From NCBI RefSeq assembly GCF_003946345.1, contig NZ_RHNY01000009.1, forward strand, positions 62,001 through 126,000: a stretch of DNA of 64,000 nt. The letters run 5' to 3'. The notes under the pieces were generated by a model. The model saw only the letters and a list, made by a program, of their open reading frames with translations, made no database searches and was not told where the DNA came from. Both the position numbers and the translations under genes were made by a program. Shown here in pieces: positions 37,747 to 44,781 of this stretch; the stretch's first letter is position 1, and each line of letters opens with the position of its first letter. The DNA comes from Levilactobacillus tongjiangensis. GTDB taxonomy: Bacteria; Bacillota; Bacilli; Lactobacillales; Lactobacillaceae.

Positions 37747-38226
37747 ATGAACATCAAGTTTGTGGTTGTGGGTAAATTGAAGGAAAAGTACTTCAAACAG
37801 GGCATCGCGGAGTACGCCAAAAGACTGTCGCGGTTCTGTAAATTTTCAATCGTCGAGGTCCCAGATGAAAAGGCACCAGAGAATTTGTCGCAGGCGGAGA
37901 TGGATCAGGTGATGGCGGCAGAAGGCGAACGAATCTTGAGTAAGATCAAGGACCGTGAATACGTCTACGCATTGGCCATCTTAGGCAAGGAACGCTCGTC
38001 GGAGGAGTTTGCCAAGGAACTGAAGGACTTGACCACGTATGGCCACTCAGACATCACGTTCGTCATCGGGGGCTCACTGGGACTGACGCCGGCCGTTCTG
38101 AAGCGCGCAGACGCTCAGATTTCGTTTGGCCGGTTCACGCTGCCTCATCAGTTGATGCGGTTGGTGTTGACGGAGCAGGTTTATCGGGCGTTTATGATTA
38201 ATGAAGGATCACCGTATCATAAGTGA
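37747..38226 (+). CDS. rlmH: 23S rRNA (pseudouridine-1915-N3) methyltransferase RlmH
   Basis: The 159-residue SPOUT methyltransferase has [20 protein letters not shown] near the start, the SAM-binding knot [18 protein letters not shown], and the conserved end [32 protein letters not shown] precedes the ATG at 37747; the upstream GTG is not favoured. Its last codons (Tyr-His-Lys-stop) are TATCATAAGTGA, the attachment site of the island that follows, as in staphylococcal orfX. The gene itself is intact. Confidence 0.96.
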
Positions 38227-38228
38227 TG
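38215..38228. repeat. Attachment site, left copy (in rlmH)
   Basis: TATCATAAGTGATG overlaps the rlmH stop codon. It is identical to the right copy at 44650-44663. Confidence 0.75.
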
Positions 38229-38260
38229 TGGGTTTTCTTGGGATTAATCACTGAGTGGGT

Positions 38261-38308
38261 CATTCCGTCATAACCCGTATCATAAGTGATACAGGTTATG
38301 GCGGAATG
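38261..38308. repeat. Inverted repeat around the second att copy
   Basis: CATTCCGTCATAACC pairs with GGTTATGGCGGAATG, and the core TATCATAAGTGATA (38278-38291) is itself nearly palindromic. It could be a recombinase or excision-related site, or a terminator lacking a T run. Confidence 0.65.
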
Positions 38309-38349
38309 AGTGTAGTCATATGTGGAATCTGGATAATGAAAGGGTGCCT

Positions 38350-41300
38350 ATGAATTTAACAAGATATAACTCAGAAGATATTATTGATAGTTTCATCTCT
38401 GATATTGTTGATGCACGTCGTGAGGAGTCACTAATTTGTGTTGTGGGTGCTGGGGTTTCGATATCCCAGGGATATCCTGATTGGAATCATTATGTTCAAG
38501 AACTAATTAACTACTGGACTTCTAACTTAAGAAATTTGGTTAAAAATTCTGAAACTTTAGCAACTAAGGTGGAGCGCACAGATATTTTGTTTCTTGAAAG
38601 TTTAAGTGATTCGTCGCAATCGAATAAACGTAAAGTTGATCTTGTAAACTTTATGGTGAAGAAATATTGTAATACAGGTAATTCAGAAACGAGCGAAACA
38701 ATGTATCAGAACTATTATTTAGAATGCGAGCGGTTTATTTTTTCTGAATCTGAACCATTATTTCACGAAAACACTATTTTAAATGAGTTGGTCAAACTAA
38801 ATGCAGCGTTTTTGACGACTAATTATGATGAGGAAATTGAAAATGCTTATCATTCCATTTTGGGTGGAAATCCTCAAGTTTTTCCAGACGCTTTTTCCAT
38901 TGAGGGAAGTCTTACGTCTAATATGGTGATTCACTTGCACGGATTGCCGTCTATAAATTGGTCTAGAGTAATTAGTTCTTCTAAATCATATACAGATTTA
39001 TATTTGAAACCAAATGATGTACATTCGAAAGTTAGAGATCTTTTTTCTGGAAAAAAGAAACCAGTAATTATTTATGTTGGTTGTAGTATGGAAGAGGATG
39101 AGGTCTTAACATTGCTTGAATGTAAGGGGCTAAATATCCAGCACTATGCATTAATGAAATACGATGACAGTAGTCACATGCCTCAAGAAAATGAAACTCG
39201 TAATTCAATTATTCAAAGTTATTACAATCAAGAACAAAGTGTTCAGCTTATTTGGTATGGAAACCGTTTCTCGGATTTAACAAAGTTTTCAGCTAAGTTG
39301 GCAGAATCAGTTCATGATTTAGAAATGTCTTTTTTACCAAATCCAGACAAATTAGAAGAAATACTTTTGTCAAGTTCAAGTCAAACAGATTTCCTAAATG
39401 CCCTTAATGGGGCCCTTCGTACGAAAACTTATTATGTCGTGGATTCCATTTTTAAAAAGTATTCGAATCTCTCTAATGAAGTAGAAATTAAAAATATTGA
39501 ATGTACTTCTGAGAGTCTGCTTTTTAAAGAACATATAGCTACAAGTTCTACGCTATTTATTGAGTATTGGCGGTGCATTGCTCGGGTGTTTGGGTCTCTT
39601 AGTTCGGAATTTAAAGAAAAGATTATATCGGAGATAGAGCAGATAAGGGAATGGAGTACAGAAACTGAAAAGGTGATTTTTGACATTGTTCTTCAATATG
39701 TCAATCAAAATCCAAATACAAAAGTTGATCAATTAAATAGAATACTGAGTCAATTTTTAAACGCAGAGTATTTTGATATTGAAGTAGCAGATCAAGATAT
39801 TCGGTGTTTGTGGTTTTCTCATCAAATTGATCATTCACAGTCAATTTTTGTAGCTACCATGTGGTCAGATAAGATGTTCTTTAGTTTCAATCAGAAGACG
39901 CTTCCTTATCTTGAAGCGTCTCTGAGCAATCTGCAAAATAAGACAGAGTATTTAAGCATGTCTTCACTTCTGGAAAATACGATAGTGAAAAATTTGAATC
40001 AGTTAATACAATCTGGAAAATTGACTTATGAGCGAAAACAAATCTTTCCGGATTCTTTCTATAAAAATGTCTTAATCCAAAGGATCTTAATACATCTTGA
40101 TTTAGAACGTGGTTTAGATATTGGTGTTTTAGAGTGTTTACGGAAAAATTTAGATATTAATAGCGGATGCTTAGGATCAAATGCAGTTGAATTTTCTGAA
40201 AAATATAACATTCCAATTAGTGATCGATTTCGTTATATTGATGATGAGAGTGAAATTTCAATGATGAATCCAGTTCAGGAACAGGCGTTTTTTAAAGTAC
40301 AGCCTATAGAAAACATACAACAAGTTGACGAATTGATACAAAAATTGAAAGAAACGCCCCCTGAGAAAAGTATAAGTCTTGGGGATAGTTTTGTGGATAT
40401 AGGTGTTGAAGGTCAGTGTAATCAACTTGAATCAGTGTTAAACACCAAAAAACAATGGGAAAGTTTTAAGATAGAGAATTTGGATTTTATTGAAAAATTA
40501 ATCAGTAATATAGATCTTTTCAAAAAATATATTTCAGTAATTGTGAAGATGTTAAACTTCGCTTTGAAAAATGGATATGATACTGAGAAAATCTCTGATT
40601 TTTTCTTACGTCAATTGCAGAAGACAAGCTTGCCGGCGTTTACAGTTCTTAATGAGAAGTTATTTTCAAAGATGATTCAACGAGCTAAAGATGATAAAGA
40701 AGCAACCATTTATCGATTTCTATTTCGCGAGGTTGATCCAACAACTTTAATAAGACCAGACAACACAGAATTTGTAGATCTTACTACTTTTATTAATACC
40801 GAGAGTGGAATTTATTATTCCTTGATCAAGAAAATTGAAACTGATTTTCAAACTGTAATTTCTGGAACTAATAAAGAACGGTTTTTGGAAAGAATTATGC
40901 AACAAAATATGAACTATAGGTGTTATTTAAAAGGTATGTTTGTGGTAATATTTGAGGAGGATCCAGAGGTTGTATCTTACTCCGGTTTTGTAGGATTTTC
41001 CCATAATTATCATCTTAGTCTTAATAAAAAGTGGACAGATAAATTTAAAAACGTAGTTGAAGGCTTGTTAAGCTCTCAAATAGACGACAATCGGGTTATA
41101 AATAATATAGCATTGACTACGCTCGTTTCAATTAGACCAGAAGAGTATCAAAACTCAGAACATAGTCATGATGTTACTAATATTAAATCTGCAGTGTTTC
41201 GACAATTGCTAGATTTCTTTATTAAAAGAGATGATGCAGATAGATATAATACTTCGAAATGGCTTCAATGGTTCATTGGAAATTACCAAGGATCAGTGAA

Positions 41301-41679
41301 TGTAACTATTTCTCATTTATTAAGAGAAATAAATGATGTATCAATTAAGCGGGGAAATCAATTATTAAATATCATTGAAAGGGCAATTACTTCAAGCGAT
41401 GATAAATTAAACAACTACGTCTTTTCCTGTGAAATATATTTTGATAAATTAGACCATGAACACATAGGTTTAATTGGAAGTTATTTGAAGATAGCTTTGG
41501 CTAAGAATTTATTACCAATAAATGAAGTTACACTTGGTCAAATGACAAATATTTTGAAAAAACTTTCAAGTGAAGGGTTAAGGGAGTCTGTTTTTGCTGT
41601 ATTGGATGAAGCTGAGCAAGTTTTGCCGCCAGAAAATTTAGCTAGGTTGAGGGACGATTTCGATTACAGCAATAAATAA
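38350..41679 (+). CDS. SIR2-domain protein, probable defence-associated sirtuin (DSR-like)
   Basis: The 1,109-residue protein starts with a SIR2 domain (about residues 20-320): CVVGAGVS (NAD-binding, about 33-37), FLTTNYDEE with Asn158, VIHLHGLPS with His197 and IIYVGCSMEEDE. About 780 mostly helical residues follow. I see no Walker A, SLOG or TIR motif there. This layout resembles DSR-type single-gene anti-phage proteins, which deplete NAD+ on sensing a phage protein. The role is inferred from domains and island context. The ATG at 38350 is preceded by AAAGGGTG; the ATG at 38320 is an in-frame alternative. The gene is much more AT-rich than its chromosomal neighbours. Confidence 0.85.
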   Translation: MNLTRYNSEDIIDSFISDIVDARREESLICVVGAGVSISQGYPDWNHYVQELINYWTSNLRNLVKNSETLATKVERTDILFLESLSDSSQSNKRKVDLVNFMVKKYCNTGNSETSETMYQNYYLECERFIFSESEPLFHENTILNELVKLNAAFLTTNYDEEIENAYHSILGGNPQVFPDAFSIEGSLTSNMVIHLHGLPSINWSRVISSSKSYTDLYLKPNDVHSKVRDLFSGKKKPVIIYVGCSMEEDEVLTLLECKGLNIQHYALMKYDDSSHMPQENETRNSIIQSYYNQEQSVQLIWYGNRFSDLTKFSAKLAESVHDLEMSFLPNPDKLEEILLSSSSQTDFLNALNGALRTKTYYVVDSIFKKYSNLSNEVEIKNIECTSESLLFKEHIATSSTLFIEYWRCIARVFGSLSSEFKEKIISEIEQIREWSTETEKVIFDIVLQYVNQNPNTKVDQLNRILSQFLNAEYFDIEVADQDIRCLWFSHQIDHSQSIFVATMWSDKMFFSFNQKTLPYLEASLSNLQNKTEYLSMSSLLENTIVKNLNQLIQSGKLTYERKQIFPDSFYKNVLIQRILIHLDLERGLDIGVLECLRKNLDINSGCLGSNAVEFSEKYNIPISDRFRYIDDESEISMMNPVQEQAFFKVQPIENIQQVDELIQKLKETPPEKSISLGDSFVDIGVEGQCNQLESVLNTKKQWESFKIENLDFIEKLISNIDLFKKYISVIVKMLNFALKNGYDTEKISDFFLRQLQKTSLPAFTVLNEKLFSKMIQRAKDDKEATIYRFLFREVDPTTLIRPDNTEFVDLTTFINTESGIYYSLIKKIETDFQTVISGTNKERFLERIMQQNMNYRCYLKGMFVVIFEEDPEVVSYSGFVGFSHNYHLSLNKKWTDKFKNVVEGLLSSQIDDNRVINNIALTTLVSIRPEEYQNSEHSHDVTNIKSAVFRQLLDFFIKRDDADRYNTSKWLQWFIGNYQGSVNVTISHLLREINDVSIKRGNQLLNIIERAITSSDDKLNNYVFSCEIYFDKLDHEHIGLIGSYLKIALAKNLLPINEVTLGQMTNILKKLSSEGLRESVFAVLDEAEQVLPPENLARLRDDFDYSNK

Positions 41680-41888
41680 CCGTTACTTTTTTACAATGTA
41701 ACGAATTGTTAAACCAGGCGCAACAGTATTATTAAATAGACCTCCTTCAGGGATACAGTAAACTAGAACCTTTCCAGTGGCTTAGCTGCCATTGGCAGCT
41801 CTTAATAATGCCTTTAGGCCATGTTGAGCGCGCTAAAGCGTGCTAAAGCGTGCTTAACAATTATGCGGGCGGGATAATAAATCGGTAC

Positions 41889-41963
41889 TAAAAAATCCCC
41901 CCATAAGAATTAGAATGTAGGTGTTGAGGCCGACATTCTAATTCTTATGGGGGGATTTTTTAA
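41889..41963. terminator. Very strong bidirectional hairpin after the SIR2 gene
   Basis: A perfect 29-base inverted repeat (41890-41918 and 41933-41961), reading AAAAAATCCCCCCATAAG outward, has a 14-base loop and A/T-rich ends. Confidence 0.8.
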
Positions 41964-41969
41964 ATTTTA

Positions 41970-42717
41970 TCGTCTATCTGCGGCTTCTAGATTTTTATTT
42001 TTAGGGAAGTATTCTCGTTTGTTCCTTGTTGTTGAGGCGTATATGGATCTGGCCATTAGACATTAACAATAAGTTCTTCACGGATTTTTGTTAAGCTTAA
42101 AAATTCTGCTCCATGGTCTGGAGTAAATGAGAGAACAAATTCTTTAGGAACTTGAACAAACCTTGTTGTGAGGGCTGCGTTCATTGATTACTCAACTGCA
42201 GCCACTAGGACAGATTCTCCAACTTTCTCAAGGATGGTAAATTCAGATTGTGATTTTTAATGTATTGATAGATTGTATTGTCATTAACAGTCACAGTCAC
42301 TTTGCCGTCTAATTTTAGGCGCTGAGAGATCTGCTTTGGGGGCTAGTGATGTTCACAAAACTTGAGCACATACTTCTGGGAATTGTTCTGGAAGTCTTGG
42401 TTTATGACTGTATTGTCTCCTGAATCGATGAAATTTTTGGGCCTTGGGAGGGGGAACGATATTTCGGTATCAGCAAATCTCTCTAGATATAGTGATAGTG
42501 AACGACGTAGCTGTAAAGCTACACCTCGGATAGATAGACCTCTTACCAATAATTTTAGAACATTTTTTCGTTCTTTTATAGTAAGACGGTGATAACTTAC
42601 AGATAGCACTCCGTTACTTTTCTTGGTTGTTAAGTAGGTATAACCTCGCCATGGCTTTTTATTCATTTTAGTGTTGTACTTTAATCGTAAATTCGTCTTA
42701 TGAGAAAAGCCCTGCAA
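41970..42717 (-). pseudogene. Decayed IS30-family transposase
   Basis: Minus-strand fragments match the IS30 transposase order. An N-terminal helix-turn-helix reads YHRLTIKERKNVLKLLVRG, then PKQISQRLKLDG and NTIYQYIK, then a DDE-like TPDHGAEF. The last piece is PYTPQQQGTNENTS, interrupted by stops on both sides. The fragments lie in different frames and the middle is shortened (750 against about 1,000 bases). It marks past IS activity in the island. Confidence 0.7.
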
Positions 42718-42757
42718 TTGTTAAGCTTATCCGTTTAACAATTGTAGGGCTTTTTAA
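42703..42757. terminator. Bidirectional terminator
   Basis: AAAGCCCTGCAATTGTTAA pairs with TTAACAATTGTAGGGCTTT (one mismatch), flanked by A/T runs. It lies downstream of the exonuclease-BRCT gene on the minus strand. Confidence 0.8.
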
Positions 42758-42825
42758 TTTTATGAACATTTATTCGCATTATCAATAAATATACAAAAAG
42801 ATACTTTGTGTTACTTACTAGTAAT

Positions 42826-44106
42826 CTATAATAAAGCAGTACATTTATAACTAGCTAGTAATTTTTCGAATCCACGGCCATCAGTTTTATAAATATCAAC
42901 CCCGTTTTTTTGTAATTCTTGAAATTTTAGTTCTTTGCTACTGTGTTCTCCATCCGTCAAGTTTGCAGAAACTTGTATACCCTGAATAAAGTAATTAACG
43001 TTTTTGCTTAGAGATCCAGTAACTATACCACCATGTTTTTTAACAATATATTCCATCTGTTTTCGATTGTAGGATCCATCTTCAATACTTCCAGTAAATA
43101 TAAACCGCAGCCCGTCGAAGATTGGAGAATCATCGTCATATTCAAAGACTTCTGAACTAGAATATTTCGAACTAGATATTTTTTTTGAAGGTACCACTTG
43201 TTTGAAATTTGAGATGAGTTTTCCAACGAGAACAGTAGCTCTAGCATCAGCAAGTGAATTATGTGCTAATGATTTAACACCGAGCATTCTTTTTACCGTT
43301 GTAAGGGTGTTATTTATACCCCCATGGTTGTATCTACGCACAACATACAGTAAATCAATAATGTCATTATCAAAAAAGTTAATTCCGCGAGATGAAAGAA
43401 AGGGGATATCAAAACGTTTAATATTCCAACCTACTATGGGCAGTTTACCGACGAATTTAGTAAATTCAGACTTGACCTGTTCTAGTGTAGGAGCATTTGC
43501 TAGGTCTGCTTCAGTGATGTTAGTTAAGCTTTTAATGAAAGTACTTATATTATTACTACCGTGGACATAGGTATCGAAATAATTCACTTCGATACCGTTT
43601 AGAACATGGGTTGCTGATAACTGAATAATGTTGTCGCTTGATTCAAGACCGGTTGTTTCAATATCTAGAGAAATAAAATCGTTTGGTAGAATACCATTAT
43701 CTGGAATATTGAATCCTGAACCGATGGATAGAGCATTTGAAATATCTTTTTGTGAGAGCAAGCGTCTACCAGAATTGAATATACCTGTATTATCTATATG
43801 TTCTTGTACAATCCAATTATATGAATCAAGTAGGTTTTGTCCTTTTTCAGTAAGATTGTAGCGGTCGTCAGAGGTTTCAAGGTATCCAAATTTTTCAAAT
43901 ATTTTCCTTTGCCAAGGAATATCGATTGCATAAATTTGTTTGAAATATTTTGGAATGTAGGCTGTGGTTCTATATTTTGCACTCCACCAAAGCGCCACGA
44001 TTTCACCGGAGGTTAATTGGTCTAGGTTAAATTGGCTCTTTTTTTTAGAATCGACAAGTGTTACAGTTCGATCAAAGTCGTCTTTATAAGTTTTTGCAAC
44101 AATCAT
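42826..44106 (-). CDS. DEDDh 3'-5' exonuclease with C-terminal BRCT domain
   Basis: The 426-residue protein has three parts. Residues 1-140 are an unassigned, partly helical region that may be a winged helix. Residues 140-300 are a DnaQ-like exonuclease with Exo I FISLDIETTGL (Asp148, Glu150), Exo II GWNIKRFDIPFL (Asp233) and Exo III AHNSLADARAT (His282, Asp287), so the catalytic set is complete. Residues 328-400 are a BRCT domain (LRFIFTGSIEDG..HGGIVTGSLSKNVNYFIQG). The ATG at 44106 follows AGAGG at 9 bases. It starts 4 bases after the upstream small gene. DNA or RNA turnover in defence or element maintenance is likely; the exact role is unknown. Confidence 0.85.
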   Translation of the reverse strand: MIVAKTYKDDFDRTVTLVDSKKKSQFNLDQLTSGEIVALWWSAKYRTTAYIPKYFKQIYAIDIPWQRKIFEKFGYLETSDDRYNLTEKGQNLLDSYNWIVQEHIDNTGIFNSGRRLLSQKDISNALSIGSGFNIPDNGILPNDFISLDIETTGLESSDNIIQLSATHVLNGIEVNYFDTYVHGSNNISTFIKSLTNITEADLANAPTLEQVKSEFTKFVGKLPIVGWNIKRFDIPFLSSRGINFFDNDIIDLLYVVRRYNHGGINNTLTTVKRMLGVKSLAHNSLADARATVLVGKLISNFKQVVPSKKISSSKYSSSEVFEYDDDSPIFDGLRFIFTGSIEDGSYNRKQMEYIVKKHGGIVTGSLSKNVNYFIQGIQVSANLTDGEHSSKELKFQELQKNGVDIYKTDGRGFEKLLASYKCTALL

Positions 44107-44110
44107 ATAA

Positions 44111-44482
44111 TTAATCCTCTTCAATTTTATTGTTGTTGTACCGAGTTAGACTTACTTTTTTACCACTAAACGGGTCGAATCTTGGCATTACAGACCATCT
44201 TGCAAATGGCAATGACTCATCATATCCTAGACTATTTCTTAGATTGTCAAGATTTATGTATGCTATGTCCTGTCCGCGTTTTTTTTGAATTTCTTGTCGT
44301 TTAAAGAATGCCTTGTTCTTTTTTTCAAGTGCGTTCTTATCTTTGTAACAAACTAAATCAATTACTGGAGAGGGACTTTGCAGTTTTACGACGTGCGCAT
44401 TGAGCTCATTAATACGTTTTTCCATGTCTTCGGGAATACTTGTATCTTTGAAATAAATGTTTTTGCCACTATGACGCCACAT
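44111..44482 (-). CDS. Unknown 123-residue protein, first gene of the exonuclease unit
   Basis: A charged protein (GKNIYFKDTSIPEDMEKRINELNAHVVKLQ near the start, basic middle KKNKAFFKRQEIQKKRG). No family recognised. The first 85 residues could be a divergent BRCT-like fold, since spacing of GKNIYF, NAHVVK and a later helix is suggestive; this is speculation. AAGGGGAG precedes the ATG. The 4-base gap to the exonuclease gene implies co-expression and probably a functional partnership. Confidence 0.7.
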   Translation of the reverse strand: MWRHSGKNIYFKDTSIPEDMEKRINELNAHVVKLQSPSPVIDLVCYKDKNALEKKNKAFFKRQEIQKKRGQDIAYINLDNLRNSLGYDESLPFARWSVMPRFDPFSGKKVSLTRYNNNKIEED

Positions 44483-44534
44483 TTGTAATCGCTCCCCTTG
44501 TATTCTTTTAATTTAATGATACGTTGTGCTAGGT

Positions 44535-44563
44535 ATGATAGCAATGAAATTATTCCTTTGTGA
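44535..44563 (-). promoter_or_regulatory. Probable promoter of the exonuclease unit
   Basis: On the minus strand TCACAA and TATCAT are 17 bases apart. A second -35-like TTGACA lies further upstream (complement of 44615-44620). Confidence 0.5.
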
Positions 44564-44649
44564 TTCTTAAGATTATTTAAAGCAAGATTGCCGTATCTGT
44601 TATGACAGTCTGTATGTCAAATGTTAACTAGGCATGCTATAGATTCTCA

Positions 44650-44724
44650 TATCATAAGTGATGCTTTTTTGGGGGGGCTAATCGCTGAATGGGTAGTTAC
44701 GGAATTCATAACCATAAGTAATAC
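44650..44724. repeat. Attachment site, right copy, with extended direct repeat
   Basis: TATCATAAGTGATG (44650-44663) is followed by a stretch similar to that after rlmH: TAATCGCTGAATGGGT here against TAATCACTGAGTGGGT there. It ends in a degenerate CCATAAGTAATAC. Confidence 0.75.
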
Positions 44725-44735
44725 AAAAATACGAC

Positions 44736-44775
44736 AAACAAGCAGGCCTCGAAATCGTCGAGGCCTGCTTGTTTA
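44736..44775. terminator. Terminator of the MerR gene
   Basis: AAACAAGCAGGCCTCGA pairs with TCGAGGCCTGCTTGTTT downstream of the minus-strand MerR gene. Confidence 0.85.
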
Positions 44776-44781
44776 GGTCGC

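Follow-up and report, generated by a model that had tools for sequence, protein, structure and literature searches.

The rlmH locus of the window

In the 64-kb stretch of Levilactobacillus tongjiangensis DNA analyzed here (contig NZ_RHNY01000009.1, positions 62,001 to 126,000; hereafter the window), a 6.4-kb AT-rich block lies immediately downstream of rlmH, between copies of a short sequence, the left of which forms the last codons of that gene. The features of the locus, including the presumed attachment-site (att) cores and the open reading frames (ORFs) between them, are as follows.

37747-38226, plus strand: rlmH, 23S rRNA methyltransferase (Pfam SPOUT_MTase 1e-57); its last codons are the left att core
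38215-38228, plus strand: left att core TATCATAAGTGATG, RlmH codons Y-H-K-stop plus TG
38260-38309, no strand: near-perfect palindrome of 50 bp with 16-bp arms (fold -33.6 kcal/mol); its centre is the second left core
38278-38291, plus strand: second left core TATCATAAGTGATA, 63 bp beyond the first left core
38350-41679, plus strand: SIR2-domain protein, 1109 amino acids (aa) from the likely start; ORF open from 38320 (Pfam SIR2_2 1.2e-10)
41889-41962, no strand: long hairpin with a T run, likely terminator after the SIR2 gene (fold -51.5 kcal/mol)
42343-42717, minus strand: decayed transposase fragment (Pfam HTH_38 3.1e-5, under its cut-off; 31% match to 309-aa ORFs of loci L058 and L063)
42826-44106, minus strand: DEDDh exonuclease-BRCT protein; ORF open from 44124 (Pfam RNase_T 5.2e-20, BRCT 2.1e-5)
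44111-44482, minus strand: 123-aa partner of the exonuclease, no known family; co-occurs with the exonuclease in three other genomes
44650-44663, plus strand: right att core TATCATAAGTGATG, exact copy; homology to L034, L043, L049 and L052 starts at 44648-44650
44711-44724, plus strand: decayed second right core ACCATAAGTAATAC, aligned with congener doublets
44736-44774, no strand: terminator-like hairpin, chromosomal and outside the cassette; also in L034, L043, L049 and L052
44782-45243, minus strand: MerR-family regulator (Pfam MerR_1 1.1e-16), first gene of the conserved right flank

Scanning the 64 kb for TATCATAAGTGATG gives two exact copies (38215-38228 and 44650-44663) and a copy with one mismatch at 38278-38291, and these three are the only matches with fewer than three mismatches; the six further matches with three mismatches are about what chance would give (mean of 4.8 in all at up to three mismatches). 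The GC content of the block is 33.9%, compared with 49.5% and 49.0% in the 10 kb on either side. An earlier, sequence-only reading of this DNA had described an AT-rich block between TATCATAAGTGATG copies, the left being the last rlmH codons, and both the repeat scan and the base composition agree with that description. The repeat as it was given is present exactly at both ends, but the true repeat is longer: the spacer of ~60 bp after each core is similar at the two ends and is followed by a second, more decayed core. Since Y-H-K-stop is part of the core, insertion at this point spares the C-terminus of RlmH. The best named match of the protein is that of Levilactobacillus yonginensis (100% identity), in a list from which the window's own genome may be missing, with most other close matches also from Levilactobacillus, and no Rfam family matches between 37500 and 45500.

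Recurrence of the core and exchange of cargo in Levilactobacillus

RlmH was found in 34 of 35 Levilactobacillus genomes, the exception being a genome that is 72% complete, and rlmH with up to 19 kb of downstream DNA was taken from 33 relatives. Two of these genomes contributed two loci each, which makes 35 loci, or 36 with the window. In 17 of the 36 loci and 17 of the 34 genomes, the window included, there is a second core (zero or one mismatch) over 500 bp downstream, a count that is a lower bound because seven loci offer at most 5.2 kb to inspect. Among 20 dinucleotide shuffles, second cores appeared in none of the 36 loci (18 times) or in one (twice). Core doublets 57-63 bp apart (up to two mismatches) occur in 7 of the 36 loci. 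The stricter pattern TATCAYAARTGATGCG, which does not cover the window's own cores, has 33 matches across the 35 genomes, of which 30 fall at the rlmH locus, one in genome G009 at a second rlmH remnant and two elsewhere; its reversed control has none. The two matches away from rlmH (G012 C23, and G030 at 2.41 Mb) share a common context, which was taken as putative coding sequence. One locus, L059, has neither a core at rlmH (up to two mismatches) nor a downstream copy.

Several features of these loci are recorded as observations in their own right. Array-like series of cores with different genes between them occur in L. acidifarinae (L064; cores at 928, 5380, 10807 and 18148) and in L063 (983, 1044, 3160 and 7579), and G012, G013, G016, G020 and G009 have extra rlmH 3' fragments, either downstream of the intact gene or elsewhere. 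In G005, rlmH is split over two overlapping frames (L065 544-1019), possibly through a frameshift or an assembly error. Small ORFs (~80, 98, 100 and 136 aa) recur shortly after rlmH in L034, L036, L038, L047 and L050, with and without ccr genes.

The right flank of the window aligns from 44648-44650 onward in L. lanxiensis (L049), L. tangyuanensis (L043), L. parabrevis (L052) and L. huananensis (L034), that is, in 4 of the 35 loci, with 86-91% identity over 1.3 kb. Homology starts only at 44690-44781 in eight further loci (flank DNA being found in 12 of the 35 congener loci overall), and on the left no congener alignment extends past 38293. A BLASTP comparison (1e-8, 50% cover) of the three window cargo proteins with the ORFs at the other 35 loci gave no counterpart for any of them. 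Even where the flanks are most similar (88-94% identical, in L. yonginensis L031 and in G032, locus L032), the cargo differs, consisting of a kinase-type gene in the former and of ORFs of 158 and 257 aa in the latter. Other rlmH cargo includes genes of defence type (e.g., Avs2 in L. fujinensis, SIR2-HerA in HBUAS51381, an OLD/AriA-like ATPase in G007, and type IIG restriction enzymes beside rlmH in L. cerevisiae, L. humaensis and, partially, L. lindianensis). L. lanxiensis carries HerA with a 311-aa neighbour that clusters with the HBUAS51381 SIR2 protein, L. parabrevis an AAA_13 plus Schlafen-domain pair, and L. koreensis a DUF2326 protein. Segments without a defence match hold AraC-type and Rrf2-type regulators (L048, L043) or a transposase (L042). 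That different cargo would be found between the same repeats had been proposed as a check on the sequence-only reading, and this is what the congeners hold at the same junctions.

Recombinases of the staphylococcal cassette chromosome (SCC) type are present at the site in some relatives. In L. huananensis 151-2B (L034) and L. brevis CD0817 (L036), genes in the order Cch-CcrA-CcrB lie between two cores. The L. huananensis proteins match NCBIfam SCCmet_CcrB (8e-161, 536 of 900 bits) and SCCmet_CcrA (8.6e-47, 160 of 700), and the L. brevis helicase matches SCCmet_Cch1 (2.8e-56, 191 of 700 bits) and PDB entry 5dgk (6.4e-46); all of these scores are under the NCBIfam cut-offs, and the proteins are therefore distant relatives of the SCCmet proteins. 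A CcrB remnant occurs in the rlmH region of G018, and a degenerate CcrB-like remnant with stops occurs in G007 on a contig other than that of rlmH. Among 397 Lactobacillaceae genomes, CcrB (E<=1e-60) was found in seven, in all seven cases within ~12 kb downstream of rlmH, and six of the seven also have a Cch match. Neither ccrAB nor ccrC is present in the window block.

The block is very likely a 6.4-kb recombinase-less SCC-type cassette, and the 3' end of rlmH, where it lies, an integration hotspot throughout the genus. The hotspot itself is evident from the repeats at both ends, the foreign composition, the junctions common to the window and relatives with different cargo, and the presence of CcrA, CcrB and Cch at the site. 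The proposal that rlmH is an integration hotspot in lactobacilli thus gains support from the recurring cores, the exchanged cargo and the CcrA/CcrB genes at rlmH in the family. The label "SCC-like" holds for the site, the repeats and these family recombinases, but not for the window block itself, which has no recombinase and a degenerate right arm; it is better termed a recombinase-less and probably stranded SCC-type cassette than an SCC element.

It is conceivable, although rather unlikely, that the cargo was instead swapped by homologous recombination between conserved flanks (through competence or transduction), with the cores as passive leftovers of old SCC elements. Such exchange fits the rarity of the recombinases, since 18 of the 20 core-bounded segments in the genus are without ccr (these measure 1.6-7.3 kb, median 3.7 kb) and Ccr pairs occur in only 2 of the 35 genomes, one of them with a CcrB that is broken near its end, the last part lying in another frame with a stop. 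The extra rlmH 3' fragments in neighbours, one of which makes the right junction in L. parabrevis (L052), are also what recombination could leave. However, in four relatives the homology of the flank stops no more than 2 bases from the core, and the 36 bp to the left of the downstream core are conserved whether or not a cassette has ccr: when every arm is scored against a profile that leaves out its own locus, 18 of 19 rank within the top 0.01% of sampled window positions. The profile comprises 19 arms, including L061_3413 with a two-mismatch core, and leaves out the left doublet copies, L032_1688, L032_2045, L048_1962, L058_1327, L064_17280, L034_14195 and L052, the last because its arm codes for part of RlmH.

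The SIR2 protein and the exonuclease-BRCT pair

The gene content given by the sequence-only reading, a SIR2 protein and a nuclease-BRCT pair, is borne out by the Pfam matches listed above (SIR2_2, RNase_T and BRCT), and a transposase remnant that it had missed sits between the SIR2 gene and the exonuclease pair. The start of the SIR2 protein at 38350 was judged from an alignment with its homologue in Lentilactobacillus laojiaonis. Its NADase motifs are intact (GAGVS at residue 43, TTNYD at 166, HLHG at 205), and the core residues of all three are invariant across six aligned homologues, while no family in Pfam, PADLOC or NCBIfam matches the C-terminal ~800 residues. The SIR2 protein (E<=1e-10) occurs in 7 of the 397 Lactobacillaceae genomes, its own included. 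The sole close homologue, that of L. laojiaonis (55% identical over its full length), is encoded by a gene that begins ~60 bp after rlmH in the same direction, which is the place the gene occupies in the window; in the other five genomes, no RlmH match was found in the 17-19-kb stretches around the homologue. Four distant homologues are 20-23% identical over the alignment. Three of the four match PADLOC Dsr1 over the SIR2 region, and a type IIG-like ORF and a defence-type ATPase lie next to two distant homologues. The window protein shares with DSR1 and Thoeris ThsA an N-terminal SIR2 domain, in which the Asn and His motifs are present, followed by a long C-terminal part, but differs from them in that the C-terminal 800 residues are without a family match and in that neither the window protein nor its L. 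laojiaonis homologue matches Dsr1 in PADLOC.

The PDB search with the single SIR2 sequence had no match, and that with a six-sequence profile had five, all to the SIR2 region (the best being 7uxt, listed as a USG protein, at 1.5e-7, and KomC reaching 1.1e-5). An AlphaFold model from a two-sequence alignment (mean pLDDT 41, pTM 0.28) was too poor for comparison. A scan of viral contigs with the SIR2 alignment gave 65 pattern matches and no relatives, and the plasmid search gave one Enterococcus casseliflavus SIR2 family protein (23%).

The likely start of the exonuclease (ATG at 44106) was chosen by comparison with L204, a locus from the Lactobacillaceae genome G185. The protein matches a generic DEDDh model in PADLOC (4.1e-25), resembles polymerase III epsilon-like and PolC exonuclease domains, and was found in 19 of the 397 family genomes at the threshold used, its own included. 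In L204 (2938-9847), the exonuclease-BRCT/123-aa pair stands directly before BrxA (8e-29, C-terminal half only), BrxB (4.5e-65) and BrxC (E 0), which makes the pair a possible candidate for an unrecognized BREX-linked module; no brx gene is present among the ORFs of the window block or their PADLOC matches. The gene order is reversed in L205, where the exonuclease is split over two ORFs and the one neighbour scanned has no PADLOC match, and in L206 the contig ends beside the pair. The transposase fragment is presumably IS30-like, judging from its motif.

From these features, the cargo of the block is inferred to be anti-phage. SIR2 proteins of the DSR and Thoeris systems deplete NAD+ in abortive infection, and by analogy the long C-terminal part of the window protein would sense infection and the SIR2 domain would then deplete NAD+, a mode of defence suggested by its motifs and by the neighbouring company. 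The exonuclease-BRCT protein and its 123-aa partner would form a second, nuclease-based defence module. An unlikely alternative is that both serve DNA repair or housekeeping. The likeness of the exonuclease to polymerase exonuclease domains favours such a role; yet both the SIR2 and the exonuclease genes are sporadic in the family and AT-rich, and their homologues elsewhere adjoin BREX genes, a type IIG-like ORF and a defence-type ATPase.

Interpretation as an SCC-type cassette

Two other origins of the block were considered. That it was brought by another integrase that uses rlmH, from an integrative and conjugative or integrative and mobilizable element with a tyrosine or other recombinase that has since been lost, is very unlikely. 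The rlmH gene is a target of other mobile elements in streptococci, and the block retains no recombinase by which to tell; nevertheless, Ccr-type recombinases do occur at rlmH in the family, where all seven of the CcrB matches lie, an argument that is weak because Ccr was the only recombinase searched for. The transposase remnant and the strong palindrome centred on the second left core might suggest that duplication of a regulatory or terminator sequence at the end of rlmH gave the repeats and that an IS30-like element brought in the block by chance. This is most improbable, since in many species copies of the core are found at the left and the right junction of cargo that is unrelated. Insertion driven by an insertion sequence was rejected, the transposase fragment being internal and not at the ends of the block.

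The interpretation of the block as a recombinase-less SCC-type cassette with defensive cargo must be weighed against a number of results. A second core was not found in 17 of the 34 genomes (seven loci having at most 5.2 kb), and no relative offers a clean empty site, with the rlmH core directly before the MerR flank. An empty site had been named by the sequence-only reading as a sign that would confirm a hotspot; the nearest are L035, L053 and L054, each with a single core and spacer and no second copy in ~19 kb, but with a different right flank. With CcrB of CD0817 broken, the genus sample contains a single pair that looks whole, that of L. huananensis; the window genome has no CcrB match, and the CcrA search there gives only short resolvase-type ORFs. 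The right arm of the window (the 36 bp to the left of 44650) scores poorly, its score being reached by 3361 of 127928 positions, which was read as decay. Although PADLOC models (E<=1e-12) match 12 of 16 congener cargo ORFs (two scans, 9/10 and 3/6) and none of the 10 long ORFs scanned elsewhere in the window (best 4.4e-8), the former rate is biased because the ORFs were hand-picked, mostly as the largest near rlmH, and a second core is present in only 5 of the 10 genomes with such matches (L031, L040, L049, L051 and L052). In the window itself, the SIR2 protein matches PADLOC ThsA weakly (3.8e-8), and the 123-aa protein has no match in PADLOC, nor in Pfam, NCBIfam or PHROGs. The L. laojiaonis SIR2 protein has no PADLOC match, and no second core with fewer than four mismatches was found after its gene.

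Comparison with known systems places the SCC-type cassette among related islands. As in staphylococcal SCC, the site is the rlmH 3' end, the core is TATCATAA, contained in direct repeats on both sides of the window block, and the cargo is variable; complete relatives also have Ccr and Cch. The window element differs in having neither ccr nor cch, in its size of 6.4 kb and in its Levilactobacillus host, and the CcrA, CcrB and Cch proteins of the relatives fall below the NCBIfam cut-offs. PMC10061031 mentions composite and pseudo-SCC forms, and on the simplest account the window cassette is of the kind named pseudo-SCC in staphylococci. In Enterococcus faecium, ccrAB islands (ECC) occupy rlmH with TATCATAA att sites, and PMC6222049 describes further likenesses (ccrAB beside rlmH, att repeats of ~50 bp with TATCATAA, inverted repeats in attR, and variable genes); these islands are 21-78 kb long and carry ccrAB, whereas the great majority of the Levilactobacillus segments are small and ccr-less. 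Several Bacillota have rlmH islands with genetic-conflict genes such as restriction-modification systems, among them Pol-SSB islands placed after rlmH with a second copy of its last ~12 bp, as outlined in PMC10061031; among the window cargo, by comparison, no A-family polymerase match was found in Pfam or NCBIfam. A word search of the main text of PMC10061031 finds no mention of lactobacilli, and no published account of Lactobacillaceae rlmH islands was found among the open-licence literature matches listed.

A plausible course of events is that a Ccr-type large serine recombinase from an earlier or visiting SCC-like element would have inserted the cassette through recombination of the TATCATAA cores, and the window copy is probably no longer mobile and now fixed. 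More tentatively, the rlmH end could serve as an integrase-poor trading post, where many small cassettes (~2-7 kb), often with one defence system each and with a common core and right arm, can stack in tandem. CcrAB from occasional SCC-like visitors would mobilize them in trans, in the manner of an integron integrase acting on gene cassettes.

Since similar rlmH islands have been published for enterococci and other Bacillota (PMC6222049 and PMC10061031), the finding extends a known kind of island to the Lactobacillaceae. What may prove new is how common small, ccr-less cassettes are here, many of them carrying defence genes. The block occupies the same kind of landing site as the resistance cassette of methicillin-resistant Staphylococcus aureus. 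The site and machinery by which methicillin resistance has spread among staphylococci reach to lactobacilli, where the freight often looks anti-phage. The movement by Ccr of cassettes that have no recombinase of their own becomes a testable question. The rlmH end is a place to seek unknown defence genes in Lactobacillaceae, and both the DSR-like SIR2 protein of the window and its exonuclease-BRCT pair, which in another genome stands beside BREX genes, are candidates.

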